In this document: positions 9,356 to 62,449 of the stretch, one piece after another
Numbering within the stretch: position 1 is the stretch's first letter
Layout: each line of letters starts with the position of its first letter
Origin: Tetrahymena elliotti 4EA
Lineage: Eukaryota > Ciliophora > Oligohymenophorea > Hymenostomatida > Tetrahymenidae
DNA: 64,000 bases
Direction of reading: 5' to 3'
Assembly: GCA_000231825.2 (NCBI GenBank)
Contig: JH720302.1
Location: 1,350,899 to 1,414,898 of the forward strand
The notes under the pieces: model-generated
Told to the model about the DNA's origin: nothing
What the model saw: the letters and a program-made list of their open reading frames with translations, nothing else
Databases searched by the model: none
Program-made: the position numbers and the translations under genes

Positions 9356-10352
9356 TCAGTAAGGTTAAAAGGCATATTTTATGATTGCACTATTTTAATT
9401 AGGATTGTAAGCCAATCTGATATAACCTTTTTCTGCCCAAGCAGTTCCCCAACTATTTCTGAGAATCAAATATTCATTTTTATATCCAACTAAGACAACT
9501 GCTTAATTACATTAATTGCCTTGCATATTTAAGTTTAAAACTCCACCTTAGAAACTATTCCAATTAGTAGCATCAGCACAAACAGCTACAGGTCCTTATT
9601 CAACAAGCGCTTTCTTTATAGATTAAAAATTTGACTCTATTTATTTAAATCTACTAATTTTGTAAAGCTATCCTGAAGAAGATTCTTTACAATTTGAATA
9701 ACCTTAGTAATGCCCCACATAAGGATACCTACTAGATAGAGCCACTCCAGTATTAGTTGTGTACTGATAATACTTTACGAACCAAAACCCATCACATCCA
9801 CTCATATTATGCCAGCCACAATCAACTAACTATTATTCAGAAAGAGTTACGTTTTGATTTTTCTTACTATATAAGAATTCAACTTATGATAGTACAGCAA
9901 AGGCTACACAATTTCCACATGAAACTTAGTTTTTAACTTGTTTTAAGTAACCATTTGTGCTTTATCTAAGATCGGAAGAAGCAGGACAACATGAACTTTA
10001 CTCACTCCCAGCAGTTGACTCTGTTTGAACATAGTTATCAAAAGAATTTGTAAATTCAGGAAGTTAAACTCCTCCTACATGAAGTTGCATAAATTCTTCT
10101 TATGTCAAATCAGTAAAATGGTTAACTCCAAATCTGGCTGAAGTCTATGAGTTATTCAATTCATCTATTTCTTTCAGATTTTAGATAAAAACTGAGAATT
10201 TATAAGATTCATATTCTTGAGATTATATGTTTAGCATATATTTTCTTAAATTTTTAGAGTTGTTATTACTACAAGTGTTTTTTAGTAGATTTTAATTAAT
10301 TAAAGTTTTTAGTTATTAACTTTTTAGAACAATAGAGTTATTTTTCTTTCAT
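9356..10352 (-). pseudogene. papain-family (C1) paralog, frameshifted, active-site His lost (copy B)
   Basis: A close paralog of copy A. From 10237 down to the TGA at 9356 there is an in-frame run of 293 codons beginning MLNIQSQEYESYKF. It contains the propeptide motif FTDLTQEEF and a Cys-containing active site, CGNCVAF, with Val in place of the usual Trp. The catalytic His is Gln (CNQAVVLVGY, codon TAA), while RNSWG is kept. Upstream, the N-terminal part that aligns with copy A (KKHLQQQQLQKFKKIYAK, from an ATG at 10352) is in another frame. The shift lies near 10225-10235 and has no plausible intron. No hydrophobic signal peptide is present in any frame, unlike copy A. Either this is a decaying pseudogene, or a sequencing error plus a replaced N-terminus has occurred. 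Even if it is expressed, the Cys-His pair is incomplete. Confidence 0.7.
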
Positions 10353-11722: not shown

Positions 11723-11953
11723 TCATTCTATTTTATGCAAACTAGCTGTGTTAATATTTTAATTCACTAAATTATTTTTTTCTTCATCTGAAACTTTAGA
11801 TTTTTAATCTTATTCTTATTCTTCTTATTATTATTATTATTATTATTATTATTNNNNNNNNNNNNNNNNNNNNNNNNNNNNNNNNNNNNNNNNNNNNNNN
11901 NNNNNNNNNNNNNNNNNNNNNNNNNNNNNNNNNNNNNNNNNNNNNNNNNNNNN

Positions 11954-12025
<72 letters not shown>

Positions 12026-14680: not shown

Positions 14681-16103
14681 TTTTAATAGCTGATTAATTT
14701 TATTTATATTTATTTTTATTATATTAAAAAATATTATGAGATTATTGAAAAGTACTAATCTTTCAATAAGTCGATTGATTATGAGAAGAAAATGAAGATC
14801 ATTCATTTAATTAAATATAAATTTGAGATAGTTAGTTAGTTAGTTTGCTATTTTTGAATTTATCTATATCTTGTCATTTAATTTAGACTACTCTTGTTTT
14901 TATAGACTTCTAATTAATAAGAAATAGACAAATCATCAAATCTTAATTGCTTTTTTTCTGATAAATTACTAGAAAGTTTGAAGTCATTTAGTTACTTTAT
15001 TTTTCTTTTCAATAATTTAATTAATTATCTATGAAAACTTTTATCATAAAGATAATTTAATTTTTCAAATTTAATTTCTCATAGCGTTTCAACTAAATCA
15101 TTAAATCTATTCTCTAATTTTAGTGAAAAAAACTATGTAATTATTTTTAGAACAAAGCAAAGACATCAAATTAAATAATTTCTAGTCATCTTTTGATTTA
15201 CTTATCAGATGCATTTAGGAAATGTGGCTATTACAAAATTACAAAGATTAAAATTAAATTTTAAGACTTTAAGAAAAAAATTAAATAAGAATGAATAGAA
15301 TAACACGTTGTGACAATTATTTTAAGGTTTTTTTAATGATTCAAAAAATTTGGTAATTTAATAATTTTATTTTTATTGAGCTCAATCAAAAATAAATTTA
15401 AATATTTTGTTTTTTTAGTAAATATGTTAGTTAGTTTGAAAAATATAATTAAGAATACAAAATATTAGATAACAGTCTTAATTATCTATTTTTTCTTGAA
15501 AGAAAATTCTTCATATTTAATTTAAATAAATTCGAAATTTTTGTAAATAAATTGTTAAATAATTTTCAATTTTAAAAATAAAATTTTTAATTTGAGCAAA
15601 TATTGAAAAATTTTCATATTTTTAATGAACTATATCATTTTAAATTTAAAAAAGAAAATAGAAAGTAAAATATTTGTCAAGTTTTTTTACACATGCAGAG
15701 ATTTTATAATGTTGGGGGTTTAGTAATTCTTATGGCACCTTTTATTTGCATTATGTGATTTAATTTATAAGTAGAATAGGAAATTATTTATGAGGTATTT
15801 AATATTTTTTGTAATATAGTTGTAGTGGTTTGATATTGTAAATTAACATTTTTGACATTCATCAACAATATTAATATTAAAATTATAAAGAGTTTTTTAA
15901 ATATATAAATGTCATACTATTTGCTCTAACATTCATTTAAAATTTTACAAAAGTAGATCTATAAATATAATAATTTTTGTTTTCATAATTTATTTATAAA
16001 TTTCAATTTAATTGTTAATAAATATTCAAAAGTTGTCAAATACTATTATATTTGTTAAATAAAATTGAAAATTAATTTAATACTATTGTTATTCATACTG
16101 TTA
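14681..16103. other. intergenic region
   Basis: This is the 5' flank of exchanger copy B and the 3' flank of the LRR gene. It is AT-rich, with no exon or RNA gene that I can support. Confidence 0.5.
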
Positions 16104-19044: not shown

Positions 19045-22000
19045 ATGGATTAGAATATCGAAGAAAAAGAGAACGGCCCTGTGACAGATTACAACTAGGA
19101 TGATATAATTACAAAAATTATGTAAAGGAATAACAAAATACTAGGTTATGGTGAAATCCAACATTTGTTTGAGTCAATAAAGAGAGAAAAACCTCATTTT
19201 ATTATAACTTAGTATATCACTTCTGAATTCAAACCTCAGAAGGTGCCTTCTTTTATTTCTCAAAAGTCAGCCATAATGTAAATAATATATTTGTTGTTAA
19301 CTTAATTCATATCAAAAAATTAAGTAATAAAACAGTTTCAGGAGCAATTCTATATCTCAGAGTATTTGATTAAGAGCAAAAAGTACCCAAGTGTTTAAAA
19401 ATTTATTTTTTAGATCACTTTCTTGATGGGATATTTGTTACTAGAATTAATTAATTGTATGAGAGCATGAAAACTCTAATTAGAACAGATCTTATTTTAT
19501 AGGTATTTGGTACTTATGTACTTAATGGTAATGATAACTGTAAGACTTATTATGTGATTGAGTATGAAAATTATGAGAATTCGCTTTCGAAACTTTATAA
19601 TTTCAATAGACCAAATTTGCTACCTGAAAATTTGAAGTAAATTATGGAAAATACTCTTAATTACTGCTCTGATCGTTCTAGCATTTAAGAAAAAGCAAGG
19701 ATGAAAAAAATGAATTTTCCTTAGGATTACTTAAAGTATTTTTTTATGGTGAAAAAAGATGAAGAAGAATATTAAATTAAGCTAAATATTCTCTCACCTG
19801 AAATATTCTAAAGCAGTATAGAAACAGGAGAAGATTTAATATTAAAAAATATTAAGAGCGAAACATCTTCAAAAAAGAAAAAGCAAAAAAATGAAAGAAA
19901 TAAACAAGTTAATGAACTTAATAGCAAATTAAGTAGACTACTTTTAAATGTACAGGTTCTTAATGAAATCAGAAAAGAAGATCTAGTTGAAGCTTTAAAA
20001 AAAAACTTCAATTAAATAATATAAAGCCATGGTATTCAAATATTTGAAATTATTGCTTAGCATCCAAAATATCGTAGCTTCGAATTAGAGGAATACAGTC
20101 CTGATTTCTTTATTTTAAGCACTTAAATGAACAATAACTATTACAGTTTAAAGTGTGAAAAGTTTAAATCATTGAAAGAAGTTGAGGATACTATTAAATT
20201 ATATGAAATATTCTACTAAAACAGTAATAATATGTTGATTCCTGTGAGTAACTATGAACCTATTATTGTAGAGGAAGGCTATTACTTATTGGTTGAAGAG
20301 TAAATCTTACCAAACTCCAATAAATTTAAAAAGAATAAACAGATTTAAATAAATCATAACACAACTTTTATTACTATTTAGTAAATTTGGGATAAAAAGA
20401 ATTCAACAAAATAAGATAAATTGAGAGTTTTATAAATTATTGTTTAATTGTTGAAGTTTAGTCAGCATCTTTATTCTAACAAATTCTCTCATGGCGATAT
20501 TGATTTTTAAAATACTTTAGTAAGCTATTCAAACGCTTATTCAGCAGAACCACCAAAAATATATTTTAGTAACCCTGTATTTTTGAGATATAAATAAAGT
20601 AGTAATACCTAAAAGAGAAAGGAAAAAAGTGATTTTCAAAGTTTGGATGATATTATTTTTATGCTTCTTATTGATTAGAAATTAGATGGTATATTAGATC
20701 AAAGAGCTATAGAATCATTCTAAAATATTTTGGAAAAATACTTTTAGGATATTATTAATGGCAGATTAGATGATAATAAAAATAACTCTATGATGTAGTC
20801 TGAAGAAAATAGTATCAGCTTTTATATTAATCGCCTGACTGATTTGTTTAAACTATTTGAAGAAATTTATTAAAAATAAATGTCAGATAAGTATATTAGA
20901 ATCAATAAGAAATGGTAAATTAAACTTGGAAAATATTTAGCTAACACTTCATGCTAAGTTATTGTTTTCAATAATCATGCATATCATGAGCATCATGAAT
21001 AAGAGGGAAATGATTCCTTTGATAATTAAGATGAAGACGATGATGACATTTTTGATGATGACGATGAAAATGATGATGATGGATTTGGTTTTTGGCAATT
21101 TGTTGATGAAGATGAAATCGATTCAGATAACGATGATGATGGTGGTGCTCAAAATTATATACATTATTTAGATTAATGTGTTATTCCAGAAATGTTTTCT
21201 CTTAAAGTTGATAAAATTGTTTATAATTTCAAAGCCAGAAGAGATTTTACAATTTTATAAATTCTAGAATCAATAGCAAGCAATAATGACTTGGTTTCAA
21301 TAAATTTTAAATCATTTTCTTCTTGCTAAGTAAAAAATGTTAAAAACAACAAAGTACATACAAACAATTACATGAACAACATTCTTAGAAATTGCAGTAA
21401 TTTATAGACTATTAAGTTAGATATTTTACAGGAGGATATTTAAGCATTTGATGTTAAATTATTGTAAAACTTGAGAGATTTAGAAAAAATTAAATTGAAA
21501 ATATTTCTTTAGCTGAATTCAAACACTTTCAAAAATGAAAATCATTTTATGGAAAATATTAACTTTTACAAGAATCTTTTGGAATTATTTATTGTGAATA
21601 AAAATTTCAAATAAATAAATGTCTATCCATATACTTTTTTTATTTGTGCTTTACCTTACAATAATATCAATTGGTATTTCTAATCAATGACTAAACTTTT
21701 TAATGTAGTTAATTAAAATATTATTAACTAAGAATCCAATAGCAACAATCCTCATAAAAGAAAAAAACCTATCAAGTAGCTTCATAGTTTTTCATAACTG
21801 ACCTAAATAAATAGCTAATAAATAACAAATAGAGTATAATCAAAAGATAATGATGACGTTGAAGAAGCTATTGATGCTTTTTTCAGATAAAATAACATCA
21901 GACATTCTTAACTAAGAAAGAATACCAAATAAAATATAATAAATTAAGTGACTACTATTTTGAGGAAATATCAATTTTTGTCATTCTAAACCTAAGTAGA

Positions 22001-22628
22001 TGAAAATAAAAAGGAATAGTTAATATTGAAGTTTTCTAATCTAATAGATGAAGAAATTGGAAGCTTAACAATAAAAATGATATATGATTAATTAATAGGA
22101 TTTACTGTATAATCTGAAGAATGCAATGATTATGACAGATACAAATGCTACTAATTTAGATTTTTAATGTAAGAATTCAACATAAGAATGATTGAAAGAT
22201 GGATCCTCTGTGATTATGATAAGAAAATTAAATCATACATATTTGGAGAAGACTATGTTCCTTTATGCAGGCATTGTGACACATTTTAATTCTAAAAATT
22301 TACATATTTAGGATAGAAAAATCTATAAAAGCTAACTCTCCATCTTGAATTCTGTGAAAATTACAACAAAATATTAACTTAAAATAAAGATTTCTTTGGC
22401 CTATCTTAAATACCTTCAAAACAATTTAATTAAATCAAACTTGTTCCAAGAATTTTTGATTATAGAAATGTTAAATAATTCTACATAAACTTAAAAAATT
22501 AATTTTAAAATGCAAGAAATTTATTCAAAGTAGATATTGTCATCAGTGAAAACTTTATTGATATCAACATTAAAAAATAACTGATGAAAGTTAAAAGGCT
22601 TGTTTCAATTTAATTTGTTTAGGAATGA
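19045..22628 (+). CDS. large degenerate-kinase/LRR-like protein, member 1
   Basis: The model has two exons (19045-19277 and 19325-22628, a 47-nt intron) giving 1178 residues, TGA stop. The N-terminus (MDQNIEEKENGPVTDYNQDD) leads to a KILGYGEI block shared with member 2. A kinase-like fold follows. The beta-3 segment is GAILYLRVFD, with Arg where the ATP-binding Lys should be. The catalytic-loop equivalent is SHGDIDFQNTLV (about residue 466). The DFG position reads YFSNP. It is therefore probably a pseudokinase. A strongly acidic Asp/Glu run lies at about residues 645-685. The C-terminal half has irregular Leu-rich segments (CSNLQTIKLDIL, NLRDLEKIKLKIF, NLQKLTLHLEF) like the ribonuclease-inhibitor LRRs nearby. 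I do not recognise a named family. Member 2 follows head-to-tail after 284 bases, so this is a tandem duplication. Confidence 0.75.
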
Positions 22629-22912: not shown

Positions 22913-25900
22913 ATGATTATACAATTTAATTGGCGCAATTTCAAATTTGGATATGTTAATAGCATTAAAATTTTTGAGATAAAAGCAAAGCTTAATTTAA
23001 TTCTAAATAAAAAAGAGATAAGATACATCTATTTATTACAAATGAATGAAAATTTGGTTTTTCAGATTTGGGAAAAGAATAAAAAGATCTTAAGTTATGG
23101 AGAGATAAGCCATTTATTATAAACTTTGTAAACATAAAAACCTTAATTTAAAGATATTTCTTTTATCTGTTCAGAGCATTAATGGAGTAGCAAAGAAGAG
23201 TAAATTAATACATTAAATTTTTTTTTTGATTTGCTTCTACTTCTTTACTAAATTAAATATAATATGAACTAGAGAACCCTTTACTGTCAAAGGAGCTATT
23301 ATTTTGTTGAGAGTTTATGATGAAAAAGAAAAGATTAAAAAAAGTTTAAAAGTTTTTTTCAGAAATCATTTTAGATTTAGTCTTTATGTAGAAGAAATAT
23401 TGAATCTTTTCTAAATTGCTAAATCTTTTATAAGAAAGGATTTGATTTTGCAAATATATGATGTGTATCATCTCAAGTTCAATGAGAGGTGTAATATTTA
23501 TTTTGTCATAGAGTAGGAAGATGTTTAATGTAATTTATAGGATATGATTTCTATTTACAATAAAAATGAATAATAAATAAATTAAATTATGGAAACTGCT
23601 ATTAATTATTGCTAAAATTGTACTTTGATTTAGCTTAAGTTATCTACTAAAAAATTGAGTTTTCCTAAATAATTTTTAAAATATTTTTATCTTTCAAATT
23701 AAGAAAATGGTGATTTATCTATAAAATTGAATGTTTTAGATTATGAAATATTTACAAATCCTCATGAGGAATAAGAATATTTGCAAGATTCTTAAACTCC
23801 ATCTTCAATTAGTTAATCTTAATATAATATGGAAGACATCAACAGTAAACTTTCTAAATTGTTAATAAATCTTAAATAGTTAGAGGTCATTAAAAGTGAG
23901 GATTTTATTGAGACAATAAAATCATATTAAAATTCTTTACTTAAACATCATGATTTGTAATTATTTGAAATAATTTGCCAGCATCCAAAATATGAATAAT
24001 TTGAACTAATTGAATATGATGAAGAGTTCATCATTCTTGCTGTTAAAATGCAAGGCCAAAACTTTTATTTAAAGCTGGAAAAATTTGAAAATCTAAAAGA
24101 GGCTGAGTAGTAATTGAATGAGTACCATACTTACAATGAAGCATTAGATAATATGCTTGTTCCTATTGAAAATGTAGAGATCCTTCTTTTAGAAAATAAC
24201 TCAATTTACTTACTTATTGAAGAAAAAATGTTACCTTATCAGAGACTTATAAAAAATGAAAAATAAAAACCCTAGATATTAAACAATTAAATTATTTTTA
24301 TGAGTACTTCCAAAAAGGAGGCAGAGAAAATAAATAAACTAACTTCATATAATACTCTAGAATTTATTATTTTAAATGCATCAGATGCAAAAATAGATTA
24401 ACTCAGGATCTTACAAATTATTGTTCAACTAATTAAATTTATTACCAAATTATACAAGAATAGAATATATCATGGAAGAATCAACACCTCAAATATTATT
24501 GTGTATTTTCCAGTTTAGTTCAGCTAAAAACCGCCAAATATCTATTTTTAGAATCCTCTTTTTATGCGTAATAAAAAATAAAAAAATAAATGTTAAAAAG
24601 ATTTAGAAAATGATAAAGAAGAAATGAATTTAATTTTATATTGTTTGATTCATTAAATTTATAATACCATAATTGATATAAAAGCTTTGAAATTATTTAA
24701 GAGAGATATTTATAGATACTTTGATTATTTGAATGAATACTACATAAGCAAACAAGATAATTAATTGTAGAGTGAAAATGAGTAGATTTTCCTTTACATT
24801 TAAAAACTTGAAGATTTGTTTGGGGTATTTGAATAAATTTATAAGAACTAATGGGATGATAAGCATGTCAAGATAAACAAAAAGTGGATGATTTCTGTTA
24901 ATAAATATTAGGGTATTCAAAAGTAATTTGGCTATTATGTCTATAATGATAATTAAGATGATGATGAAATTAATTAATTTCAGTAATATGATTTTTTTTC
25001 TGACAGTGGTGAAAGTGATAGTGATAGTGATTCTGAATATGGAGTCTTTAAAAGTAAATATGATTAATGTAGATCTACTCATGTATTTGAATTGAACATT
25101 GAGAAAATTAGTTACGATTTTGAATCTCATATGGATGAATAAGCTATGAATAAAATTGAGAGCATCTCAAAAAATAAAAGCCTAAAGTCTCTTCATATAA
25201 AAGGATATAAATTTTAGAAAATATCTTCAATGTATTTTTTTCTTTCTTAGAAACCTTTAGATCAAAACAGCAAATAATATTTAGAAAATCTTTTAATAAA
25301 TTGTAGTTCACTAAAAAAATTGAAACTAGAAATTAAAATGGAAGAATATGATTCTTTTGATTTGAGTGGAATCAAATAAATGAAAGAGTTAGAGTTTCTT
25401 AAATTAAAGTTTAGTTGTTATTTAGATTGTAGTCGAAAAAATGAATATAAAGATATGATACAAATGAAAAAATAATTCTATGATTTCATAGAGATTTTTC
25501 AGTATGTTAGAAATCTCAAAGTGATTGATTTTGATTTTGTTTGCACAGTGGTTTCATCTTTTTAACATCTTGATTTCATTTGGTATTTTGAAAAATAAAA
25601 ACTTATTTGTGAATAAATTGTTGAAAAAAAGTAACTAAAAAATGATGATACTAATGAAAATAATTAAAATTAACTCGATTTTGATATTAATTTCTTAATT
25701 AATGATAAAAGAATTTAGTAGATCATTGCAGATAAGAATATGGAGGTTTTAGATTTAAATACAGTTATCAATATAGCTAACTTTTATTTATCATTTTAAA
25801 ATTAAGAGTAAGAAATTGTTTAGGAGAGTAAAAATTGGCTTATTGAGAATTTAACTCTTTTTTTACAAAAAAATAAATTCATAAGCTGCACAAGTTTTCT

Positions 25901-26618
25901 TATGTATTAAAATGATACACAGCTTCTCGTTTTAGAGTTTTAAAATATTTTGGATTTTAGAATAGGAAGTCTCTCCGTTTATTTATAATTTACTGGATAA
26001 ATGTACCTCCTTGTTAACAATTTTAAATGCAGAAGCCTTAATAGATTTAAATGCTAATAAAAAAATTAAATTTAAAACTTTTTAATTGATATTGTGGTGT
26101 ATGCATGGCTTTAATGTGAATATGAGACAAATATCAAAGAACAGCTATTTAATTCAAAATTTTTTCAATTCATAAAAAATAATTCAGTTTAATAAGGTAA
26201 ACTCAAAGAACATTAATAGGAAAATGAGCAAGAATATGTTTCTGATTAATCATGCAAGCATTTAGATTATATGCTTTATCAGATGCCTTGTTATCAAAAC
26301 CAAATTAATCTCTAAAAATTAACCTATCACTTTTATTTTTGTGATGCAGTTTTGTAAAATTTGATTAAATCTAAAGATTTTTTTAGATTCTCATATTTTA
26401 ATACAAATACTCTATTAGAATTGCATTTAAAAATATATTCAGAGGATAAGTTACTAATAAGACCACATTTTTTTTAAAATTTGAGAAGGCACATTGAAGA
26501 AGCAAAATCACTTGTTAAAATAACTTTGGATTTAAACTAAAATAATTCCTAAATAGCAAAAAGACAACTTTAAAAACTTAGAAGAGTGGTTTTTGTTAAA
26601 TTTTTAAGAAAAAGATGA
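22913..26618 (+). CDS. large degenerate-kinase/LRR-like protein, member 2
   Basis: A tandem paralog of the gene at 19045. The exons are 22913-23199 and 23273-26618 (73-nt intron), 1210 residues, TGA stop. The intron is at the same place, just before the beta-3 segment (GAIILLRVYDEKEK, again Arg for Lys). The catalytic-loop equivalent is YHGRINTSNIIV, so even the catalytic Asp kept in member 1 is lost. The DFG position reads YFQNP. An acidic serine-rich patch (SDSGESDSDSDSEYG) replaces the Asp run of member 1. The C-terminal half has Leu-rich segments such as CSSLKKLKLEI and NLKVIDFDF. The start is uncertain: 22913 is the first in-frame ATG, but the ATG at 23042 gives an N-terminus closer to member 1. 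Probably a scaffold or binding protein rather than an enzyme. Confidence 0.72.
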
Positions 26619-29212: not shown

Positions 29213-30430
29213 TCAAGAAGTCAATGTTTTGATTTAGAAATTTTTAGGTACTTTGGTATCATTTGGGGTGTATTCTCTGAAAACATTTTAATTAGTTATA
29301 ATATAGATTTGGCCTTCTTCGAGAAGACTAACTTTATCATTAAGAGATTAGCATTATTGCTATGAGACAATATGAATTTAATCTTCTTATTTCACTAATA
29401 TGGCAGGTCTAAACCCACTATTATCTCTGAAAAAGACTAATGTATCATTATATTCATCATACATAGAAAGATTACAAGGGCCACAAACTTAAGGCATTCC
29501 TTTAGCTCTAGCATATTAGGACAGTTATGAGTCTCCTCTTGTAGAACGAGTAATCATGTGGATAATATCTTCAAGGGAGAGTTCAGGATAAAGTGATTTA
29601 AGGCATTGAATATATCTTTAAAGCACATAAGAATCACTGCATTTTATTAGTTCATCTCTATCAATTAATATACCTTTTTCCTTAAATAACTCTGAATTTT
29701 TTTCAAGATAAGAAATAATTGATCTCTTAGTTACTATTTCACCATTGTGAATAAGATTTTAGAAAGGGTGGGCTTTAATAGCTGCACTTGCAACATTCCC
29801 AGTTAACTAAGGTTATAAAGTAGTAGTTGCAAAACGAGTATGAGTTAAAATAGTGTCTGCTTTATAGCCATATTTAGGATTTAAATCTTCATAAGCTTCT
29901 ATTTCTGATGCAAATGAAGCAAGCTTGTAGCAAACATATTTTGTTGAGATTGAAGCTAAAGCATCTGTTTCATTGACAACTGAACGAGGATTCTGTTAAA
30001 TCTTTTAAATAATTTTATCAAGGGTGTTTGGTTATTGAGGTACTACAAAAAATTAATAAGAAAGTGGGTGCTATCTAGCTTCTCCTAAGATGAATTTCTT
30101 TTAGTTTATTATAACCTCACGTTTATGTATAACAGCCAAACCCTAACGAGTTAATTTGTCTTCTATTTATTTAATATCATTATTATCTCTAATAAATACT
30201 TAGCATATTGCTAAGGATTTCTTAATCTCTTCAAAATTCTCTATAATGGATTGAGAAAATCCTCCATAATTCTCAAAAAAATCCCAATCAATCTTCAAAA
30301 GAAGTCCAGCTCCATCACCATATCCACTAACTCCTGCTCCTCTAGCTAAATCATCTTTCAAGTGACGAACTGCACTTTAAACAAATTCGATTGTAGGGTT
30401 ATTAGTCTTATGAACACCTATACCACAGGC
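29213..30430 (-). other. C-terminal class II glutamine amidotransferase (Ntn) domain of the glutamate synthase
   Basis: This domain would release ammonia from glutamine. It begins at [10 protein letters not shown], where the Cys corresponds to the N-terminal nucleophile of glutamate synthases. It continues through [58 protein letters not shown] and [12 protein letters not shown], all family landmarks. In normal enzymes the Cys is exposed by removing a propeptide. Here it lies about 2260 residues into the chain, so activity as an Ntn hydrolase would require cleavage just before it. Confidence 0.85.
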
Positions 30431-33400
30431 TGAGCGATTAGATCCTGCTAAAATTAGCTTAGTAATTCTATCGCTCATCAAATCTTTAGCAGTATGTTAA
30501 CAACTAAGTATTGCTTTACATTCTTTAGGTATTGTTTCAGCACTTAAACCTCCCTTTGAAATAGCTATCTTTTGTTCTGCTTATTCATATTGGTCAACAG
30601 GATCTTAAGTGAAGATAAAGCATCCACCACAACTACCTTTAAATAAGGATAATGTTTATTTTAATATATAGTTAATAAATATATTTAAGGAATACCTGAT
30701 TCACAATCACCTTACATGATATTAAGACAGTCTCTCAAACTTTTATCTGAAATAGGAAGTTCTATTTCTTTAGGATTATTATCATCTTTTCATATTCAAA
30801 AATTATTTAAATTAATTAACCTAAAAATAATTTTTACTTAAATCTTGTAATATTTTTAGTTTCCTTGGCTACTTTGATGTATCAGATTACTATACATTTT
30901 TATTTGAAATATTTAACTATTTGGAAATAGATGCCCCTTTATCTGCTTATTGTTGCATAAATAAAAGTTTTCTATAATTTTCAATATGCTTTTTAATCAC
31001 ACTTGGAGTTATATACTTTTGGGTATAGTGAGATCTTAGAGATTACATTATTTGAAGAACAATATCCTTAGATACAGCTCCTTGCTTGTAATAATAATCT
31101 TCTAAGAATCCCTCTACTGAAGGTTTTCTTTATAAATTTTATGCATTAAAATTTTTCAGCAAAGTCTTTACATCAGATTTGGTATGTCCTATTAAAATAA
31201 TAATAATTTTTATACTTTTTATTGAAATTTTAAAATAAATAATTACCAATGGTACCAATACCTGTTTTAGCCTAACCTGCTACAAGCAAGTTTGGAACAA
31301 TGTAGGTAGGTGTTTAAGCAATTGTACTTGATTAAGATTATTGTTAAGATTTTTATAATGAAAAACCTGTTTAGCCTGTAGGCGTTATTTAAAGAAAATT
31401 AGAAACAGGCATATGGGGTTAGTAACCTAATGATGCTATGAAGGCTTCTGCTTCAATAGTATTACCAGAGAGGAAATGACCCATAACAAGAGGACTTCCA
31501 GCTTGCTTCTCAAAACCCTTTATCGGATCTATATCTTCGCTAAAGATAAAATTAATAAACTTTACTGTTGAATTTTGCTTCAGTTAATTGATTTATTCAG
31601 GTGTTTTATGATATTACTTGAAGAATTCAAAAAGTTAAATTTTATTTTCAAGTTCTTCTATTTCTCCTTTGAGCTATTCAGTTTAATCTTATTGTTCTTT
31701 TTGCTTGGGTTAAGATTACTATGAAGCAAGAGATTATTGCTTTTTAATAAGCTTTTATCTTATTTTTTCAACATTTGTAGAAGAAGTTATGAGATCAAAT
31801 TAAGCAGCTAATTAAAATTGTTTTTCATTATCAGCCAAATCTTTTAATTCAAGTAACTCTGGTATTCCAAATTTAGCTTCATAAGGTTCTTTTCTACCAA
31901 TACAAGTTACTCTTCTAACTCTGGAGAGTTTAAGTTAATTGTAAACATAAGTGGTGATATTGTCTTTCAATATTGCATCATCTGGATTTCTTAACAAAAT
32001 TCTAGCAATATCAAGAGAAACATTTCCAACACCTATTATAGCAATTGACTCTGTTTCAGGAATACTAAATGGACAAGGAGGATGAGCCTTTTCTGTTCTA
32101 TAAAATGGAATACCTTCAGTTTTATTATCATTCATATCTGTTTTAGAGTTATACCATTTTACGACATCGTCAGCAGATATGACATATTCTTTTCCTGAAA
32201 TATTTTCAGCAAGCTTACGAGGAGTTGCACCATGAGTTAAAAAGACAGCACTAAATTACTCATAAATGTATCTCATACGACGTTAATCAATATAAGAATT
32301 TCCAACAAATTGTATTTTATCATGTTCAAAAATAGAAAAATTCTTGAGTTGTTTCTTTGTGATTGGATGATCAGGTGCAACAGCATCTATAATTTTTCCA
32401 CCAGGTGCAAAATAGGAATCAAATAAAACTATTTCATCAACTTCTGGATAATTATTTGAAATTTAAATTGCAGTTTCTAAGCCAGCAGGACCTGCACCTA
32501 TAACTGCAACAGAAACTGTGTGAGGTCTGTCTTTGAAGCTTTATCTTACATTAACTCTCTACAATTTTTCAAAATAAGCCTAAAAATTATCTAAAGATGG
32601 CTTGGAAATCATAGTTTAAAGAGCATCAACTCTCTTATTATCCCACAAATGCTAAAACTTTTTACTTGACTTTAGCATGTTGCCTTTATTTAACTCAAAA
32701 TCGACCTTTCATTAAAAAGTGGAAATTTTTAACAATTAATTTTGAGTAAATTTAAAAGATTACCTTTGAATTTGATTGCAAATTAGAGCTGTTTGATAAG
32801 TTTTCATTAATTGTACCCATAAAACGATTTTAGAAAATAGAAGATATGAATTCAAGATTAAGTGCTTCAGTGCTGAAGAAAGACTCAACACCAATTTGAT
32901 TTGCCAGCTCTTTTTGTAAGAATAAACATGTATAAGTCTAAGCATAAACTCTTGTACTTAAATCGACATCACCATCCTTTGCAATAATTCTCTTGAGAGC
33001 TTTTTGCATACCAACTGAGTAATTATTCCATAATTCTTTACTTGTGTAAGTTGCACCTCTTAGGTCTTTATATCTATTAGCTAATACAGAGAAATGTTTT
33101 TCAACAGCTCTTGGATGGACTAATTTAACTCCACAAACATTTAAAAGAACATCTAATGAATGAGGGTCTATAGGTTCATCAGTCTCTAAAATTACATCAA
33201 AATCAACTAAACCCTCCTTTTTTAGTCTTTATCTTACTAAGCCAATAATTACCCAAGAATCCAAATGCATTTAATCATTAAATGAATCATCCCCTTATGT
33301 TTCAATGTGATCACTAGTTCTTGATTCTTATTCTGATCCTAATCTATGAGTAAATAGAATAACCCTCTTATTACCAACTACTATTTCATTTCGAATTTAT

Positions 33401-36400
33401 TTCAAAATCATATCTATTTTTTCTTCTACTGTTGTTTTAGCAACTTATATTTCAAAGACATCACATCTTTTATTTTCAAATTATTTTTTATTGATTACGT
33501 TTTCATAAATAAAAAATTTTACCTTAAATCTACTTCAATAGGATTTACTTAAGGAAGAAGTTGTTCTAATTAACTGGAACTAATTACAGGATGATCGAAT
33601 TTATAGTATGTCTCTTTGTATTCGCTGGGAGAGTAAGCTTTAATGTAGATATCGGAGTTAATAAATTGGCTTTCAGAGTCAGCATCTACTGGTGGACGAG
33701 TCTCTTGTGCAAATGGCTGTCTAAATAAACCATAAAAATTAGTACTTGAACCAGAGTTCATAAATCTATCTTAAAAGTTGAGTTAATCACCCATTGAATA
33801 AGTCATTTCATCAAGACCACTCTTTGCTATAGATTCTATACAAGTTTGTATCTCGGAATTCCATCCAGCAGATTATTAAATTTTTAAAAGATTTTTAGCT
33901 AATTTAATAATTTTTTCTCTTGCCTTGATATTCTTGTAGCTATAGAAGTCCTTTTCATGAGTAAACATTCTAAAATGCTTTTCAATCATTTTAATGTTTT
34001 CTAACTCTGTAAATTAGTTGTTTATGTCATTGTAAATTATCAAATCCCCATTTTAGTAAATTATTTCTTTTTCCTAAAGTTATATTTATTACTTTTTAGA
34101 TAGTGTAATAGATGGAGTATTTTGATTAGAATTATTCAAGATTAATAGTGCAAATTATCTAAAATGCTCTAGCACCCACTTTGATTGTTAAAATGTTAAA
34201 GGCTTTAAGCTATCTTCATTTATATTTGAAGCTTTATTAGAGTTAATAATTATTGTGCTTTAAAGATGAGCATTTTTAGCAAATCCTTATCCAATCTCTC
34301 CCAAGACAATAACTTTAGCATTTTCTCTTAGCTCATGACAACAGTTAACACCTGTATTTGTGATGATAGCTGTTCCATTAAACTAAAATAGAGCATGGTG
34401 TCCTAGCTCACTTTCAGATTTAACATAAACATTTGCACTTGATCTCATAAAAGGATATCTTCCAGTGAATGACCCTGAACTAGCTTTGTTGGCAGATTTT
34501 TAATTTAGTACAACTGTTCCTTTGCTCGAATAACCAACAAACTATCCTAGTCTTAACCCTTCAAAAATCATATTACATTGAGGTGGACAAAATGAAGCAA
34601 AATCATTTCCTGCTATACCATAAAATTTGAATGAAAAAGGTGTTTACCTCTTTTTACAGTTAAATAGCTTGGCCAATGATTCACCAACTCCTGAATCACT
34701 AGCATATAATTCATATGTATTTTCTTTTTTATTTTTATTTAGGTAATCCTATTCTAGCAAAAAGTTCAAATTGTAAGGATTATGGAACTTGAATTTTTTC
34801 ATAGACTCCTACCAATTATCTAAAACATGCTTAGCTTCTATTGATTAAGTTTCTTTGTAGCAATTTTCTACTAACCTCTTAAAAATATCACGAGCATCAC
34901 TGCATTCTTCCAAACTCAAGAACCTTTTTCCTTAGACATGCTTTCTATTTTATTGAATATCGTAATTCAAAAACAAATAACCACCAGTCATTCCTATTTT
35001 TTAAATATTAAATGAAAAATAAAAAGTGAAAAATAGTTTTTTAGGAAAATTAAATGTACCTGCTGCACAATTTCTACCTACATTTCCTAAGACAACAATA
35101 TTTCCTCTAGTCATGAATTCACAAAAGTGATCATTGACGTTTCCTGTTACCACAGCATCCATACCTGAATTTCTTACAAAAGATCTTGTTCCTGAACTTC
35201 CGTCAATGTACATTTCACCACAAGTAGCACCAAAACCAATAGAATTTCCTACTATTACTTTTAAATTATTTTATTTCTTTTTAACAACTATTTTTCCTCC
35301 TGAGTTGGCTTTTCCTACGTGATCATTGCAGCTACCCTCTATAACTAGAGTTATATTATTTTTCAAGAAACAACCAAAATTCTAAGGTCCTACTTAATGA
35401 CTTGAGTGAAGATGAATTTAAATAGGGAAATTTATACGATGATATTAGCAATAACCACTAATAGCAGCACCAAAACTAACATCAGATTGATTAAGAGAAA
35501 TATCATTTATAAGTAGGGGTGGGATAACAGAAGAATTTTAGTGTACTTATAAATGACTTTAAATTCTTTCTATAACTTTTATGTCCTTTTCAGATGGGAT
35601 TTGAAGCAATGTATCAATATATCCTTTCTAGGCTTTAAGCTAAATTTTACCTTGAAATAAAAATGAATTAAAACATTTCTTTTAATAAATAAAATAAATA
35701 AATAAATACCTAGTAATAAATCCAGATCTGAGAAGAATCTGTTGCTTTATAAAAACTCTTTTGCTCTTCCTCTTAACTTGTATAAGCTCCCTTTTTAGTT
35801 GCATTTTTCATTCATGTATTTAAGAGCTCCTAATCCTAGCATAAACAAGAAGTCCTAAGCTTTTTCTGGAGTACCTTCATACTTCTTTATGTATAAAGGA
35901 TCTTAAGTATTCAGACCAACAGTACACCCTCCACTTGCATTTTCTAAAACTTTTCTTGATATTTCAACTAAGGATTCTTCTAAATCCAATTCATCAAGCT
36001 TTCCATGACGATCTTCAATTTCTTAGTAATCTAAAGTAACTGCACCAGTTGATACTTCAACGTATCCTGCTTCACATAATGAGTCCTATTTATTCAAAAA
36101 TTCATTTAATTTGAAGCTTAATAAACATTTGAATTGTTATGAAAATTTTAACTAAAAAATTACATAAACCATTCTTGCTAATAAGTTAACATCTATATTC
36201 TTGCTTTCAGCACTCTTTTTTAGTGGCTAAATAAGAGAATCAATAGTAATTTATCTGGGAGAATGGCATTTTCTAAGCATTATACATCCTAAACTAACTA
36301 AAGCTGAAGTACCGATTTCAACTTTATCTGCACCAAGAAGAATAGCTTCTACTACATCTTAGCCATTTACAATACCACCACTTGCTACAAGTTATATTTT

Positions 36401-40298: not shown

Positions 40299-41357
40299 TC
40301 ATAGTTTAGTATTATTAGAATTTTTTTAATCTTGATTTTCATCTTTTGATTATTTCTATTAGTTATCTTTTGATTATTCCCATTCATTATCTTGGATTAT
40401 GTTAAATATAGCTGTTATTGGTAAATGATCAGATGGGTAATATTCGCTAGGTAGACCTTCTTACTTTTTAATCCAATCAGTAGGAATGTCTTTTACCTCA
40501 GACAACTAAAATTATTTCATTTTTGGGTTGAATAATATATAATCAAGAGTTCCTTTAAATGATTTTGTGTAATTTGTAAATTCTGGATGCTTTCCAGTTC
40601 CTTAATAATCCTCATACGAACTCTTCAAGTCAATTAAATTCATTTCGCTGAACATCTTATGAATAGTCATCATGTCTTTAATCTTTACATACTTCGAAAA
40701 TTATTTCTCTACTCTGCTTAAGTGAGGTTCTTTTTTGTCAGTAACATACTTAACGACATTACTTGATGGCATAGAGTTGAAATCTCCACATAAAATTATA
40801 TTTTCATCCTCTTTGTAATTTTTAGTGAGGTGACAAAGAATTTAGGCAGCTTAAAGGAGCTTTACTTCTTCGTTTTGTGGATTCCAGAAAAGGTGTGTAT
40901 TAGCAATAACTAATTTTAGATCAGAATTTAAATGCTTTATGTAAAGTATGAGAGCATTATTGTTTCTTTAATAATTTGCTTTGTCAAAGGTATTAGGAAT
41001 CTCACTGTCAAAGTTGATGGGATGCTCAGAAATCAACTTAAATTTATCTTTTTTAAACATTGTTAAAACACCTTCGTTTCTGTAAGGCTTAAATATATAG
41101 TATATATAATATCCTAACTGATAAAACTACTACCAGTAAAAGTCATCAATATGATCTACTTCCTAAAGACACACAATATCACTATTTAGTCGCTTAATTT
41201 CTTCTACTATTTTCCATTTTCGATAATCAAAATTTAAAAACTATTTTGGACAGTAAGGGAAATACCATGGATCTGTATACAAATCTGCTAAAATATTGTA
41301 TGAAGTAATTGATATTGAACTATCAGGATCTTTATTTATCTTATTAATGCTATCCAT
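40299..41357 (-). CDS. endonuclease/exonuclease/phosphatase-family protein, CCR4/nocturnin/ANGEL type
   Basis: An intronless gene for 352 residues. The fold is a Mg2+-dependent phosphodiesterase; relatives remove poly(A) tails from mRNA or dephosphorylate NADP(H). Family motifs appear in the expected order: SITSYNILADLYTD near the N-terminus, DIVCLQEVDHIDDFY (metal-binding Glu), VIANTHLFWNP, ILCGDFNSMPSSNV, GTLDYILFNP and SDHLPITAIFN (catalytic Asp-His). All key residues are present. There is no LRR domain or obvious targeting peptide before the catalytic domain, so it is not a classical CCR4. The C-terminal tail is Gln/Lys/Asn-rich (NEWEQSKDNQQKQSKD) and ends in TGA at 40299. The start at 41357 (MDSINKINKDPDSS) is the only ATG just before the domain. 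Substrate cannot be decided from sequence. Confidence 0.88.
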
Positions 41358-42647
41358 TTTTAAAGTATTGTTACCTCCTTTGTTAAATCCTAATTGTTAC
41401 TTTATTTTACCTACTATATTAAGTAAATTTTGCATACTAAAAAAACAATTAATAATGCTTATTAATTTCAATCAATTATTTAAATAAAGGTTTTTCTAGA
41501 ATATATACTAATAGCTCTAAACCAAACATATTTATCTTCAACTTTTCATATTCTTAGTTAAATAATTGACACATCAATTCAACTTCATATTTAAAATGCA
41601 TTCTTAACTACCTTATTTTCACTAATAAAAATAAATCAAAGATAACAATATTTTTATAGGTACTTTATTTTATCAAGACATTATCCATACTTTAAAAGTA
41701 ATAACAGTAAATATAAATATACTTTAAATTTTTTAAATATTTTCTTTTTTCTATTTCACTTAAAATAATTAACAAAAATTGCAACACTTATATATTCATG
41801 ATAAAAGAGATCAAATTATTTTTTTTTAATTTTGAGAACAGAAATTTTATTATAAAATAAAAGACTTTATCTTAACATTTTAAATCATTTTTGTTAATAT
41901 TAAATAATTTTAAATTATCAAATTATTTTTTTTGGTTTTATTTTCTTCAATTTTATTAATTGAACTTGTTTGATTTTTATAAAATATGAATGACTAAGAC
42001 TTTTATTTAAATTTATTCTATGGAAATCATTTGATAAGAAATTTGGAAAGTATATATTTAGAATGATAATTAATATATTGATCATTCATTAAATTGCTTG
42101 GTATACAAAATAAAAGTATTTTAAAAGTTTTTGAGAGGTTTTATACTGATCTTTATTGAATTTGATCTGAAAAAAAAATTATTTATTGAAATCTAGACAC
42201 CAGTATTTATCTAAAATCAAACTTAAAAAATAAAAAAGTTTTATTTATATTAAAACTTATAATACAAAAATTTTTACAAAAAGACTAGTTAAAATTTTAA
42301 ACAAAAACTTACTAACTACAGTGATTATTTTTGATGGATAAATGGGTTTTTATTTAAGATTATTATGAGGAAAGAGGTTAAGATATGATGAAAATTTGAT
42401 TAAGATGCTATGCAAGTGTTTATTTTTTTATAAAAGTAAATAAATTGAATTCATCAATTAACCAAATAGACACTTATTATTTTTTAGCTTTCTATCCTCT
42501 TTATTAATGGATGAGTGAATGTGAATAAAATTTGTTTAATTTAAAGAGATTGCTAGCTTATTAATATAAAATATAAAAAAAATAAAAATAAAAATTCAAT
42601 AAATTAATTAATTAGGAAGTAAAAGATATTTAAGAACAAGGAAAGAA
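41358..42647. other. divergent intergenic region
   Basis: This spacer separates the minus-strand nuclease start from the plus-strand helicase start, so it should carry both promoters. It is AT-rich, and I recognise no element. Confidence 0.5.
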
Positions 42648-43982
42648 ATGGAAAGCACTACTCTTGAAACTGATTTAAAGGACAGAATGAAAAATGTGAA
42701 GCAATGGTTTCACAAAGTTGAAACTGATTAAGAAAAGAAGGATTTTATTTTTGAGTTTATTAACAAGCTCATTGTAGAAACTGATGTTATACCAAAGGTT
42801 GTGATCTTCTTCAATGAAAAATAATATTTACTTAAGGTATTCGATGAATTACAAAAGGATCAACGTTTCAAGGAAATAGCTGATAAATTTAATGTTATGC
42901 ATGGTGATTAGAAAATCGAAGATAGAAAAAAGATTCGTCGTCAATTCGACAATAATGAATTTAACTATCTTTTGGCAACAAACTTGGTAGCTAGAGGTAT
43001 TGACTTCAATGAAGTCACATCAGTAATTAATTGTGATATCCCACTCTAAACAAGCAAAGGGAGCAGAGGTGAATTAGACGTCTAAACCTATATCCATAGA
43101 GTAGGTAGAGCAGGTCGTTCAAATAAGAAAGGTGTTGCTATCTCAGTTTCTAATTAGAAAGAAGAAGAAGCCATTATTGGTTTAGCAGTAAAATTTGATA
43201 TCACTATTCATTTATACAAAGATTTTGATGAAATTAAAAAACATCTTAATGAATGTCATAAGCATAATAAGGAATAAAATGAAAAGCTCAAGGCTCTCGT
43301 TTCTGATAAGACCTGGTAAGATATAGGAATAAGTGATGAATTTGCTAACTAACTTTAAGAAAAAGGTTTTAAATTCCCTAAACCTTCATAAGTACTTTGT
43401 GTTCCTAAAATAATCAAATTCGAACCATCAGAAGATTAGTTTTATCAACATATTTCAGTATTTGGTTTTGCTAATGGAAGAGGAAAGACTCTTTGCTTCC
43501 TTGCACCTTTGATTTAAAAATATTAAAGCTAAGACAAAATGTCTAAGCTTTGGTCTCCTTAAGCTATTATTATGGCTCACTCAAAGGATCTCTGTTTGCA
43601 AATTGGTCAATAAATAACTAGTATAATGCCTCCAAGCAAAAAGTATTAAATCTCTTATCTCTTTAAAGATACTGATACTAAGGATATTAAGGGTTCCATT
43701 TGCATAGGTACTCCAGGCTATATCTAAAAAATATTGAATGGTATTAAAACTGATAAGCTTTAATTCCTCATTATTGACGAAGCCGACGAGGTCTTGTAAA
43801 ATAACTAAGATGATCTCAAAGATACCTTAAACAAAATTTATGGTAATATAAATAAAGGTTTCTAACTTATTTTGTTCTCTGCTACATTTGAAGAAACTGA
43901 TATTCAAAACCTAGTAGAAATTATTGATGATGCTGATTTTAAAGAAGACGATATTAATTTCGAAACCCACTTCGAAATTTGA
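42648..43982 (+). CDS. circularly permuted DEAD-box protein (Dbp5/DDX19-like)
   Basis: An intronless ORF of 444 residues with TGA stop. The C-terminal helicase lobe comes first: NVKQW (16-20), motif IV VVIFFNEK (51-58), MHGDQ (84-88), motif V LATNLVARGIDF (109-120), motif VI YIHRVGRAGR (148-157), KKGVAISVSNQ, and the lobe end EIKKHL (195-200). The N-terminal lobe then follows, complete with its own boundary: Q-motif-like WQDIGISDEFANQL...GFKFPKPSQ (223-248), motif I FANGRGKT (274-281), the motif Ia region SPQAIIMAHSKDLCLQI, Ib IGTPG, motif II DEAD (377-380) and motif III SAT (411-413). It stops soon after SAT, where the linker to lobe 2 would normally start. The lobe-2 features (GELDVQTYIHRVGRAGR, DLP-like IPLQTSKG insertion) best resemble Dbp5/DDX19, mRNA-export ATPases. 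Motif I is one residue shorter than AxSGxGKT, and the Q-motif Gln is displaced. Activity is uncertain. Confidence 0.88.
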
Positions 43983-45128
43983 AAATTTACTAAGTGAAAT
44001 ATATTTATCTTATATGGTCTAATTTATTTGTTTTACTTGTATTGAATTATCTCTAAATCATTTTTAATCTTAATAATACTCAATTCAAAAATATTTCTAA
44101 ATTTTTAAAAATAACTAACTAATCTACCATAATTTAACTTTTTCCTCTCTCCCTACTCTCATACATCATACAAGTATGATTATTGGTATTATATTTAAAG
44201 TTATCTTATTATTTTTATTAAATTAGCTTTTTTATTTGTAAAATTTTATTTTTTTAGATTATTTAAAATAATTAATATTTTAAAACTATTAAAGAGTACG
44301 AGTTAAAAAATATTCTTTTAAATTTAAACATTATTTATTAGGTATTTATTTTATTAAAATTAATGAATAACAATTTAAATGAAAGTTATTGGTGTGATGG
44401 CATTTATTTTTTTCAATAAAGTTATTATTTTACAAAAATAAAGTATGAATTGAATATCTAAATTTAAATATAGAGATATTTATTCCATTCAGACATAATA
44501 TTTTATTACTAAAACTTTTTTGTTTTAATTTATTGTAATTAGAAGTGGTTTCATAAAATGAGAAATACAATTTTTAGTTTGTTATAGTAACACAATGAAA
44601 TCATTCTGGCAATTTTATTTTATCATATTGTTAAAATATTTGATTTAAAGAGGCATTTTGTGAACAGCAAAAGTAATGTTTAAATAAAGTTTGTGTTAAT
44701 AGGTTGAGTTTAAGAATTTTTCTTAAATGAAAGTAAAATAAAAACTTAAATATATACTTATAGACTATTAAATGAAGAAAAGAGCTAAAAATAACTAAAA
44801 ATGAAATCTGATTAAACGAATTTTTGTTGGAAAGGGATTTTGGTTTTAAAAAATAAACAGTAATATTAATAGTAAAATAAATTCTGTTTCTTTTTTAACA
44901 TAATAGTAAAAATATCTTGCTTTGTTTGTTTGTTTGAATAAGCAGTGCAATCTATACTATTTTCAATTAATTGTTTTGATTAGATAATAGTTAATTTTTT
45001 TTGTTCTACTCAGTACTCTAAAATATAATTTTAAAGAGAGTTTTATACAAAAAAAAACATTAAAATTTTTTGTTTAGGTTTAAAAATAAGTTAGTAATTT
45101 TAAAATAATCCAGTGAAATAAGTCTTCC
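43983..45128. other. intergenic region
   Basis: An AT-rich spacer between two plus-strand genes, with a (GTTT)n run near 44920-44935. No gene or RNA is supported. Confidence 0.5.
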
Positions 45129-48100
45129 ATGAAGCTACGTACTTAAAGAATCCATGAAGTAGGTGGCAGTAATGCTGATTTTAGGTAATATATTCATTCG
45201 CTTTAATCTGTTTTACATTTCATGTTTTTTAAATTGATAAATTTATATTTTTAGACCTAAGAATTATGCAAGACCTGATGGGCTTGAAAGAATAGATTTT
45301 TTATCCAAAACAAAATCAGTACAAAATTTTAATGAAATAATTAAGTCAAAGACAATGAGATAATCTCCTCATCCATAGGATATATCTGAACAGTTTTACA
45401 AAACAAATCACAAATAATTAAAAGAGAAATCTATTCTTATTGCACCTCACCACTCTACTTTGGAGGATCAAGATAAACTAAAAGTATTTACAGGAGATTC
45501 TTAGTTATTGGGAGATAAAAAACAATAATTTGGATATGTCAAAGCAAAGACAAAGACTTAAAAGAAGAGTAATTTGTTTTATTCCATTAGAAAAAAGGTT
45601 AAAAGCAATTAGAAAAAAAACACAAAAACAAGTTTTATTTTAGAAATTTATTCCAGTAACAGCAAGACATAAAATAGAAAAGTGATGTTGAACCAATGTA
45701 GATAATAAACATCAGAAATATGATTTTATTTTCAATAAAGTATTGAAATCAATTCATTAGTATTTTAGTTTTAATTTGCAAAGAAGTTTTATTATTTATT
45801 TATAGTATGATTATTTAAATACTGGAAATAAATAATAAACAATATGAATCATTCTATTCCAGATTAATAAAAATATAAAACTTATTTAATTTTATAAATA
45901 AATAGACCCAGAATTTTAGAGCTTGGTTAATGAGAAACATGAGCTTCATGCAACAGCTATTTAGGAAACATAGTTAGTAGGTTTAGAGCAAAGAGATACA
46001 TTGGAAGGTAAGATTGATCTTGAAAATGTTCGTGAAATTAGAAAAGCTTTGAGAAGAAGATATGCAAATCGTAAAAATTTTTAGAAGATCTTTGCTGCTT
46101 GGGATTATGATGCAACTGGTATTATAACTATAAAAAAAATGTATGAGATGCTCAACAAAATGGAAATTAAAATTAATATGGATGAAGCTAGAGTACTTGT
46201 AGCTTCAGCTGATGAAAATAGTTAGGGATATTTGAATCTCAATTAGTTTATGTATCTCATATTTAATTCTAATGAAACCCTCAATGTTGATTTAAAAAAA
46301 ATTCCAGGTTGAATTAGTTTCAGTGAAAAATTCTTTTTTTAAATTATTATTTTTTATTAGTTTTAAGTGAAAATGAAATGTAAGAGTTAGTTGGAGGAGC
46401 TAAAGTTGTAGATAAGCTTGCAGAAGATGTAAGCAAAGTTAAAAATAGCAGGAAGGAAAAGTAATTGTTAGCAGTCTTGAAGAATAGACTTGAAATTATT
46501 GTTAATTAAATTCTTCAATAAGATACTCTAGATTTTGGGTTTATTCCATATGAAAAATTTGAAACTGCTATGAAAAAAGTAGCTATACCTACCTCTGTTA
46601 TGGATACAGGAGATATAAGGAGATTGTATGATTAATACAAAGTTGATGAACATAAATTTGATTATAAGAAATTCATTAATACTCTAAGAAATTACACCTT
46701 TATTCTTGAAGATTTATATGTATAAACTTTATATATTTTTCTTAGATATAATCAATGCTTTTTATTTAACTGAAATAGAAACCTGATGTGGAAGAGGAAG
46801 GTGTCCATTTAAAGAAAAACGCAGATAAAAACATGCTTTTACATTAAAAGCTGTTGAGTATGGAAAAACCAATACATATCATAGATTCTCATGAGTAAAA
46901 TAGTTGGTAGCTGGAATTAATTAGAACCAAAGCAAATAAAGTATTTAAAACCATTCAGAGATATTTCTCAACAAAAAAAGAGTTTCAAGATTTTCTTCAA
47001 AATTAACTTCATTAAGCTGAAGGAGAAAATATTTCTAAACAAAACCTCACTAAATTTTTCAAGAATGTTTTCCTCACTGTAGGAGAAAAAGATGTAACAT
47101 AAAATGAACTGGAAGGCTTTCTTTCTGCATTTAGATATAACAACCATGGTTACACTCCCGTTAATGAAATAGCTCCCCTAATTTATGAGTAATTTAAATT
47201 TATTCTAAATGATATTTTATACATTAAAGCATATTTTGGATAGAATTAACTAGTAAGTTAAAAAAAATGATCATCAAAATCATAATTTTGGTAGTAGTTT
47301 CTTACATAAATAATAGGCAATGTCTTTTTTATTTTTAAAAATTAATTTTAAAAAGTCAACATTTTTTGATGAAAATAAAATACACAGCAATAGGAGAAAG
47401 AAGTTTTGTTGACATTATTTCAAATGGTTTAATTTGATTAAATTTTATAATATGTTTATTTTTAAAAGTAGATAATATTTTTGAAGCTTTTAAATTAATT
47501 TTTTAGCACTACAAATTGATAGTTAATATATCCAATTTATTAAAAAGATAAATTAATTAACTTATTGAAATATTAATTTTTAATTAGAGAATCAGATAAA
47601 GAATGGAATATACGTATGCAGTGGAAAAAGAATAGACCTGCTCCTCCAAATTCAAAACTATTTCATGAAGATTTTCCCAGGGAAGACCTAGATTAAAAGG
47701 AGAATGATGAATATATTAGATAAAAGAATGGATGGATTGAGGAGAAAGATGAATAAAACAAATAAAATTTATTAGAGAGTACAATTATTAATAATAACAG
47801 TACTTTATATTAGACATAAGAAAAGAGCCCTAAGAGAAGACGTAAACTATATTCTTAAAATAGCATTTCTCAAAGTACTCCTTAACTAGAAACTTTACAC
47901 AATGAATAAGGTAAAAATATAAATGGTACCTTTGAAGATTTGCAAAAGACGAAATTAAACGACACTTAAACCAAAACTGAAAATTCTGATGTTTTCAAAT
48001 AGTCAAATGTCTTTTAAAATAATAATTCTTCCATTTACAATTATAGAACTCTAACTTAATCAAGGAGCTTTAATTTAAATAAAATTTTATAGAAAGTTGA

Positions 48101-62349: not shown

Positions 62350-62449
62350 NNNNNNNNNNNNNNNNNNNNNNNNNNNNNNNNNNNNNNNNNNNNNNNNNNN
62401 NNNNNNNNNNNNNNNNNNNNNNNNNNNNNNNNNNNNNNNNNNNNNNNNN
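62350..62449. other. 100-N assembly gap
   Basis: Exactly 100 Ns, a conventional placeholder of unknown true size. It interrupts or follows the plus-strand LRR gene. Confidence 0.98.

Follow-up and report, generated by a model that had tools for sequence, protein, structure and literature searches.

A DEAD-box protein of the Dbp5/DDX19 type with permuted RecA lobes in Tetrahymena elliotti and related ciliates

Introduction

DEAD-box proteins work through two RecA lobes that close on ATP and RNA, and one of them, DDX19, has an N-terminal inhibitory helix. Natural circular permutation occurs in other proteins, including certain GTPases and DNA methyltransferases, where it rearranges a single catalytic domain internally. 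Two papers describe these GTPases (such as Nug1) and methyltransferases as natural permutations of a nucleotide-handling or catalytic domain (PMC9196750, PMC3320104), and one of them gives two main models of permutation, duplication and fission-fusion (PMC3320104). Here we analyze a gene in a 64,000-nucleotide stretch of Tetrahymena elliotti 4EA (contig JH720302.1 of assembly GCA_000231825.2, forward-strand positions 1,350,899 to 1,414,898; "the window"). Its product resembles those proteins in being a natural permutant, but in this case whole RecA lobes swap places. An initial annotation, made from the sequence alone, had read the gene as a circularly permuted DEAD-box protein of a form not known to have been described. 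We too found no description of a natural permuted DEAD-box protein in the literature that was searched, which consisted of open-licence papers.

Results

The gene is a single uninterrupted frame (Table 1) when it is read with the ciliate nuclear code (translation table 6), in which 23 TAA/TAG codons are decoded as glutamine. Read with the bacterial code, window positions 41000 to 46000 are not overlapped by any frame of 80 codons. Pfam finds Helicase_C at residues 36 to 158 (E value of 3.3e-21) and DEAD at residues 275 to 420 (E value of 2e-22), so that a profile search recovers each lobe, as had been proposed, with the usually second domain in front. The motif set of DEAD-box proteins (superfamily 2), Q, I, Ia, Ib, II, III, IV, V, and VI, is complete on the two RecA lobes, with a variant motif Ia. 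The frame, the Pfam domains, and the motif positions confirm that all lobe-2 motifs stand ahead of all lobe-1 motifs in one 444-codon open reading frame, and the usual DEAD-box chain order of lobe 1 followed by lobe 2 is not that of this protein. (Motif names and consensus sequences are those in common use for the family; domains are those of Pfam.)

A profile of 441 positions built from 12 conventional Dbp5-like proteins gives the same result. Residues 13 to 208 match profile positions 254 to 440, and residues 207 to 429 match positions 34 to 243. The profile is covered once, with its order swapped and its old termini joined, which is the pattern of a circular permutation; the uncovered positions are the inter-lobe linker (244 to 253), the loose N-terminal tail (1 to 33), and the last position. 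In this mapping, the two old termini are joined to each other, and the ends of the present chain lie within the former linker between the lobes. This bears out the initial placement of the break points at the ends of the lobes. The linker that had been put at about residues 200 to 222 does contain the new junction, which can now be narrowed to roughly residue 207/208, a position within a predicted helix.

The swapped order is shared with other ciliates, in which the orthologs sought were found. The proteins of Tetrahymena malaccensis (P0002; 75% identity) and Tetrahymena thermophila (P0003; 71% identity) are full-length, have the same order and the same start, give the same profile picture, and have lengths of 451 and 452, respectively, nearly equal to the 444-codon gene. 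The Ichthyophthirius protein P0004 is also permuted (46% identity over 82%), with a shorter first part in the profile mapping. The public gene model of P0004 carries a LUC7 domain at residues 1 to 113 and lacks the front of lobe 2, which may be a fusion or an annotation error. The glycine-lysine-threonine of Walker A, the DEAD and SAT motifs, and every motif VI arginine are retained in P0001 to P0004. Because both lobes match and full-length relatives in two other Tetrahymena species keep the order, the gene is beyond chance. The length of the open frame was dropped as evidence, since shuffling the 7-kb neighborhood yields stretches without TGA that exceed the 485 codons of this locus.

Lobe order was compared among database proteins, taken as the 120 matches listed per search (of 221, 278, and 6194). 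Of 256 proteins, these matches together with three from this genome, 250 are of conventional order and 5 are permuted (P0001 to P0004 and P0122, a paralogue on contig C14); the remaining one, also from this genome, consists of lobe 1 alone. When this genome's three proteins are set aside, 3 of 253 are permuted and 250 are conventional. Within this genome, 42 stretches picked from profile and protein search matches, a selection that takes in part of the Helicase_C matches, comprise 26 conventional two-lobe genes, 2 permuted genes (this one and the C14 paralogue), and 14 with one lobe or none. The assembly (G000) is 90 Mb in 134 contigs. The telomere-type repeats among the matches listed, part of 163 and none of them on this contig, all stand at contig ends, and for this reason the assembly looks macronuclear rather than scrambled germ line DNA.

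The affinity of the lobes to Dbp5/DDX19 that was first suggested is supported by sequence trees, by an insertion, and by how lobe 2 folds. The permuted proteins group with Dbp5 and not with eIF4A or other families in trees of both lobes (support of 93) and of lobe 2 (89). In the lobe-1 tree, they group with conventional Dbp5-like proteins (88), and a wider clade (73) takes in locus L052. The insertion between N-x-D-x-P and the motif VI histidine is 15 residues long here, compared with 5 residues in 14 of 17 matched DEAD lobe-2 stretches of this genome. An insertion of at least 10 residues occurs in 19 of 197 matched proteins (256 scanned), including P0099 and P0006, neither of which was placed in the tree. 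The best Protein Data Bank (PDB) sequence matches of the permuted protein are in the Dbp5/DDX19 family, as is the best fold match of lobe 2, a comparison that spans residues 3 to 206 of a predicted model. The features shared with Dbp5/DDX19/DDX25, an mRNA export ATPase, are thus the motif set, the long insertion ahead of motif VI, the LFSATF sequence of motif III, the position in the trees, and the best PDB and lobe-2 fold matches. In contrast, the permuted protein has lobe 2 first, a junction in place of a free N-terminal extension, GRGKT in motif I, and AHSKDL instead of a PTREL-like motif Ia.

Two other genes of this genome bear on the comparison. The C14 paralogue is 61% identical to this gene in alignment and 59% in the protein search, and it lies in an array of the form lobe 2-1-(TGA)-1-1, that is, a permuted gene, an in-frame TGA, and two extra lobe-1 copies in the same frame. 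The motifs of its permuted copy have decayed (NSRGKT, RGIYF, and HRVSKAN), and one of the extra lobe-1 copies has SDA for SAT while the other has DEAA and SAI. The ratio of nonsynonymous to synonymous substitution (dN/dS) is ~0.29 (0.27/0.92) when this gene is compared with the C14 copy and 0.42 to 0.52 when the C14 lobe-1 copies are compared with each other; these are rough values, obtained by a simple Nei-Gojobori-type method on AT-rich DNA. The other gene, L080, is a divergent Dbp5-like gene with orthologues in T. malaccensis and T. thermophila (P0138/P0139; 82% and 80%, respectively). It shares the Dbp5-type insertion, but unlike the permuted gene it has the conventional order, one intron (inferred by eye), TPD/TPE in motif Ib, and HNIGRTGR in motif VI, where asparagine replaces the first arginine. 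Its best PDB match, at 72.5 bits, is Dbp5, which is only slightly ahead of eIF4A at 68.6 bits. The idea that the permuted gene is the sole Dbp5 of the genome was dropped once the tree brought up L080. The four best matches to a DDX25 probe were also rejected as Dbp5, being eIF4A, eIF4AIII, DDX21-like, and DDX42-like by PDB match.

AlphaFold2 predicts a single helix (residues 193 to 217) across the junction. A first model, made with 4 sequences, was poor (predicted local distance difference test score [pLDDT] of 52.7). A second, made with 20 sequences, has a pLDDT of 69 to 96 over residues 11 to 210 and of 37 to 79 over residues 211 to 430 (by tens of residues), with a predicted template modeling score (pTM) of 0.57. 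Because of the lower pLDDT over residues 211 to 430 and this pTM, the placement of the lobes relative to each other is not to be trusted. The alignment behind the second model is deep on lobe 2 only, as MAFFT put the conventional proteins on one lobe.

Table 1. Positions of the permuted gene, its parts, and two related loci
Feature	Residues	Position	Strand	Basis or remark
Whole gene, permuted Dbp5-type DEAD-box protein		42648..43982	+	Intron-less, 444 codons, ATG at 42648, TGA ending 43982; frame, Pfam, same start in P0002/P0003
Lobe 2 (RecA2; motifs IV, V, VI)	13-208	42684..43271	+	Profile positions 254-440
Motif IV	49-55
QxxR region	85-100
Motif V	111-120
Dbp5-type insertion	133-147	43044..43088	+	Between NCDIP and YIHRVGR; coordinates counted from frame
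Motif VI	148-157
New junction, old C-terminal tail plus old N-terminal tail	193-222	43224..43313	+	Profile, model; predicted helix 193-217
Lobe 1 (RecA1; Q, I, Ia, Ib, II, III)	221-429	43308..43934	+	Pfam, profile; match (34-243) starts at residue 207
Q aromatic	221-227
Q motif	240-248
Motif I	274-281
Motif Ia, variant AHSKDL	310-315
Motif Ib	354-357
Motif II (DEAD)	377-380
Motif III	411-413
C-terminal 15 residues beyond lobe 1, within old inter-lobe linker		43935..43979	+	Profile
C14 array (L029)		G000:C14:1200000-1209500, 4002-6737	minus
L080, divergent conventional-order Dbp5-like gene		G000:C43:369500-372100, about 754-2240	plus

Elsewhere in the window, glutamate synthase pieces (GATase_2, Pyr_redox_2, GXGXG, and Glu_syn_central by Pfam) lie in several frames at 29213 to 35804 (minus strand), a stretch of higher G+C (0.24 to 0.30). 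Two similar Na+/H+ exchanger-like genes on the minus strand (1376 to 3906, with Pfam matches on 1379 to 2905, and 11764 to 14806, by eye only) have papain-family protease genes between them (5348 to 6820 and 9356 to 10237; Pfam). Two runs of exactly 100 N, at 11854 to 11953 and 62350 to 62449, are probably assembly gaps, the first within a Gln/Asn repeat of the exchanger-like frame. Two neighboring long frames on the plus strand, 19467 to 22628 (1053 codons) and 23544 to 26618 (1024 codons), have a similar layout by eye; the former has no Pfam match at 1e-5.

Discussion

Taken jointly, the results are best explained by a circularly permuted Dbp5/DDX19-type DEAD-box protein that arose, most simply, in the common ancestor of Tetrahymena and Ichthyophthirius and has been retained since, a reading to which we give a probability of roughly 0.82. 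Since the swapped order is present in both genera, the permutation predates their split, unless it arose twice. The structural part of this reading is strong, and the functional part we infer. DEAD-box action is the closing of two lobes on ATP and RNA, so what is needed is both lobes and a tether that allows closure. The RecA lobes would fold normally and close around ATP and single-stranded RNA as in other DEAD-box proteins; a short helical segment (residues ~207 to 220) would hold them together by connecting the end of lobe 2 with the Q motif, and the old hinge between the lobes would be left open. Judging from the motifs retained in four species (motif IV excepted in Ichthyophthirius, whose model does not include it), the protein is probably an active RNA-dependent ATPase, and it may perhaps remodel RNA-protein particles as Dbp5 does, possibly during the export of mRNA.

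Several observations weigh against this reading. An earlier, poorer lobe-2 tree disagreed with the Dbp5 grouping; the others are taken up with the alternatives that they favor. The likeliest genetic route would be that tandem copies were fused in frame and then lost both outer halves, much as the initial annotation had supposed, and permutation by duplication is plausible but unproven. Read-through of tandem copies is favored because the old ends join almost exactly, and the C14 array shows that tandem copying of this family's lobes has happened, a part of the proposal that fits. Two tests for traces of the duplication were negative: a duplicated linker segment at the two ends, a scar that looked promising by eye, was rejected because it is not significant in any of the four proteins tested, and the window contains no further match to either lobe above noise that could be a remnant of the outer halves (the rest of the contig was covered by the whole-genome protein search only). 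No intermediate of the permutation was seen. Both the missing scar and the missing remnants favor fission-fusion: a Dbp5-like gene would have come apart into one gene per lobe, and these would then have fused in reverse order, with no full tandem copy involved. So do the lobe-1-only copies that adjoin the C14 paralogue and indicate that single lobes can be copied alone. We nonetheless consider fission-fusion unlikely, given that no lobe-2-only gene of this type turned up in this genome (protein search, 42 stretches) and that old termini joined almost residue for residue (profile position 440 to 34) are the direct outcome of reading through tandem copies.

The variant motif Ia and the lost motif residues of the C14 paralogue, which imply that activity is not required in every copy, raise the alternative of a pseudo-enzyme, a folded, conserved protein that is no longer an ATP-driven RNA clamp and is retained to bind a partner. 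This appears improbable in view of the Walker A, DEAD, SAT, and motif VI residues kept in all four orthologous proteins. Finally, although the Ichthyophthirius model is itself odd, two genes or a tandem array joined by misassembly or a wrong gene model, which had been named as a possible refutation, is an explanation we hardly credit, because separate genomes agree: the frame here is unbroken, two other Tetrahymena species have the same chain and start, and the listed telomere repeats stand only at contig ends, as in macronuclear chromosomes. The rearrangement looks real and lasting.

The permuted protein keeps all motif VI arginines and L080 has lost one, and for this reason the permuted protein, not the conventional one, might do the work of Dbp5 in Tetrahymena-type ciliates, with the junction helix replacing the N-terminal inhibitory helix of DDX19 and rewiring control of the ATPase cycle. 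We offer this only tentatively and think it doubtful. Dbp5/DDX19 is regulated by Gle1 and Nup159/Nup214. A Gle1 profile has no match in this genome, and 14 control genomes are equally without a match, so that this absence says little by itself. One paper reports Gle1 missing in T. thermophila, and of the terms helicase, DEAD, and DDX19, only helicase was found there, in a reference title (PMC5450191). A comparative study that includes T. thermophila states that DDX19 is well conserved across supergroups and that Gle1 is missing from Chromalveolata (PMC3032688). If the partners are truly reduced, one might guess that constraints on Dbp5 have loosened in this lineage.

In DEAD-box proteins, the RecA lobes are taken to follow one fixed order, and all but 3 of the 253 listed database proteins have it. 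A natural permutant retained by two genera of ciliates would mean that the helicase core is independent of both the lobe order and the old inter-lobe linker. It would also be a ready-made test of the roles played in the Dbp5 cycle by the linker and by the N-terminal extension, and its relatives could be searched for the steps of a permutation.
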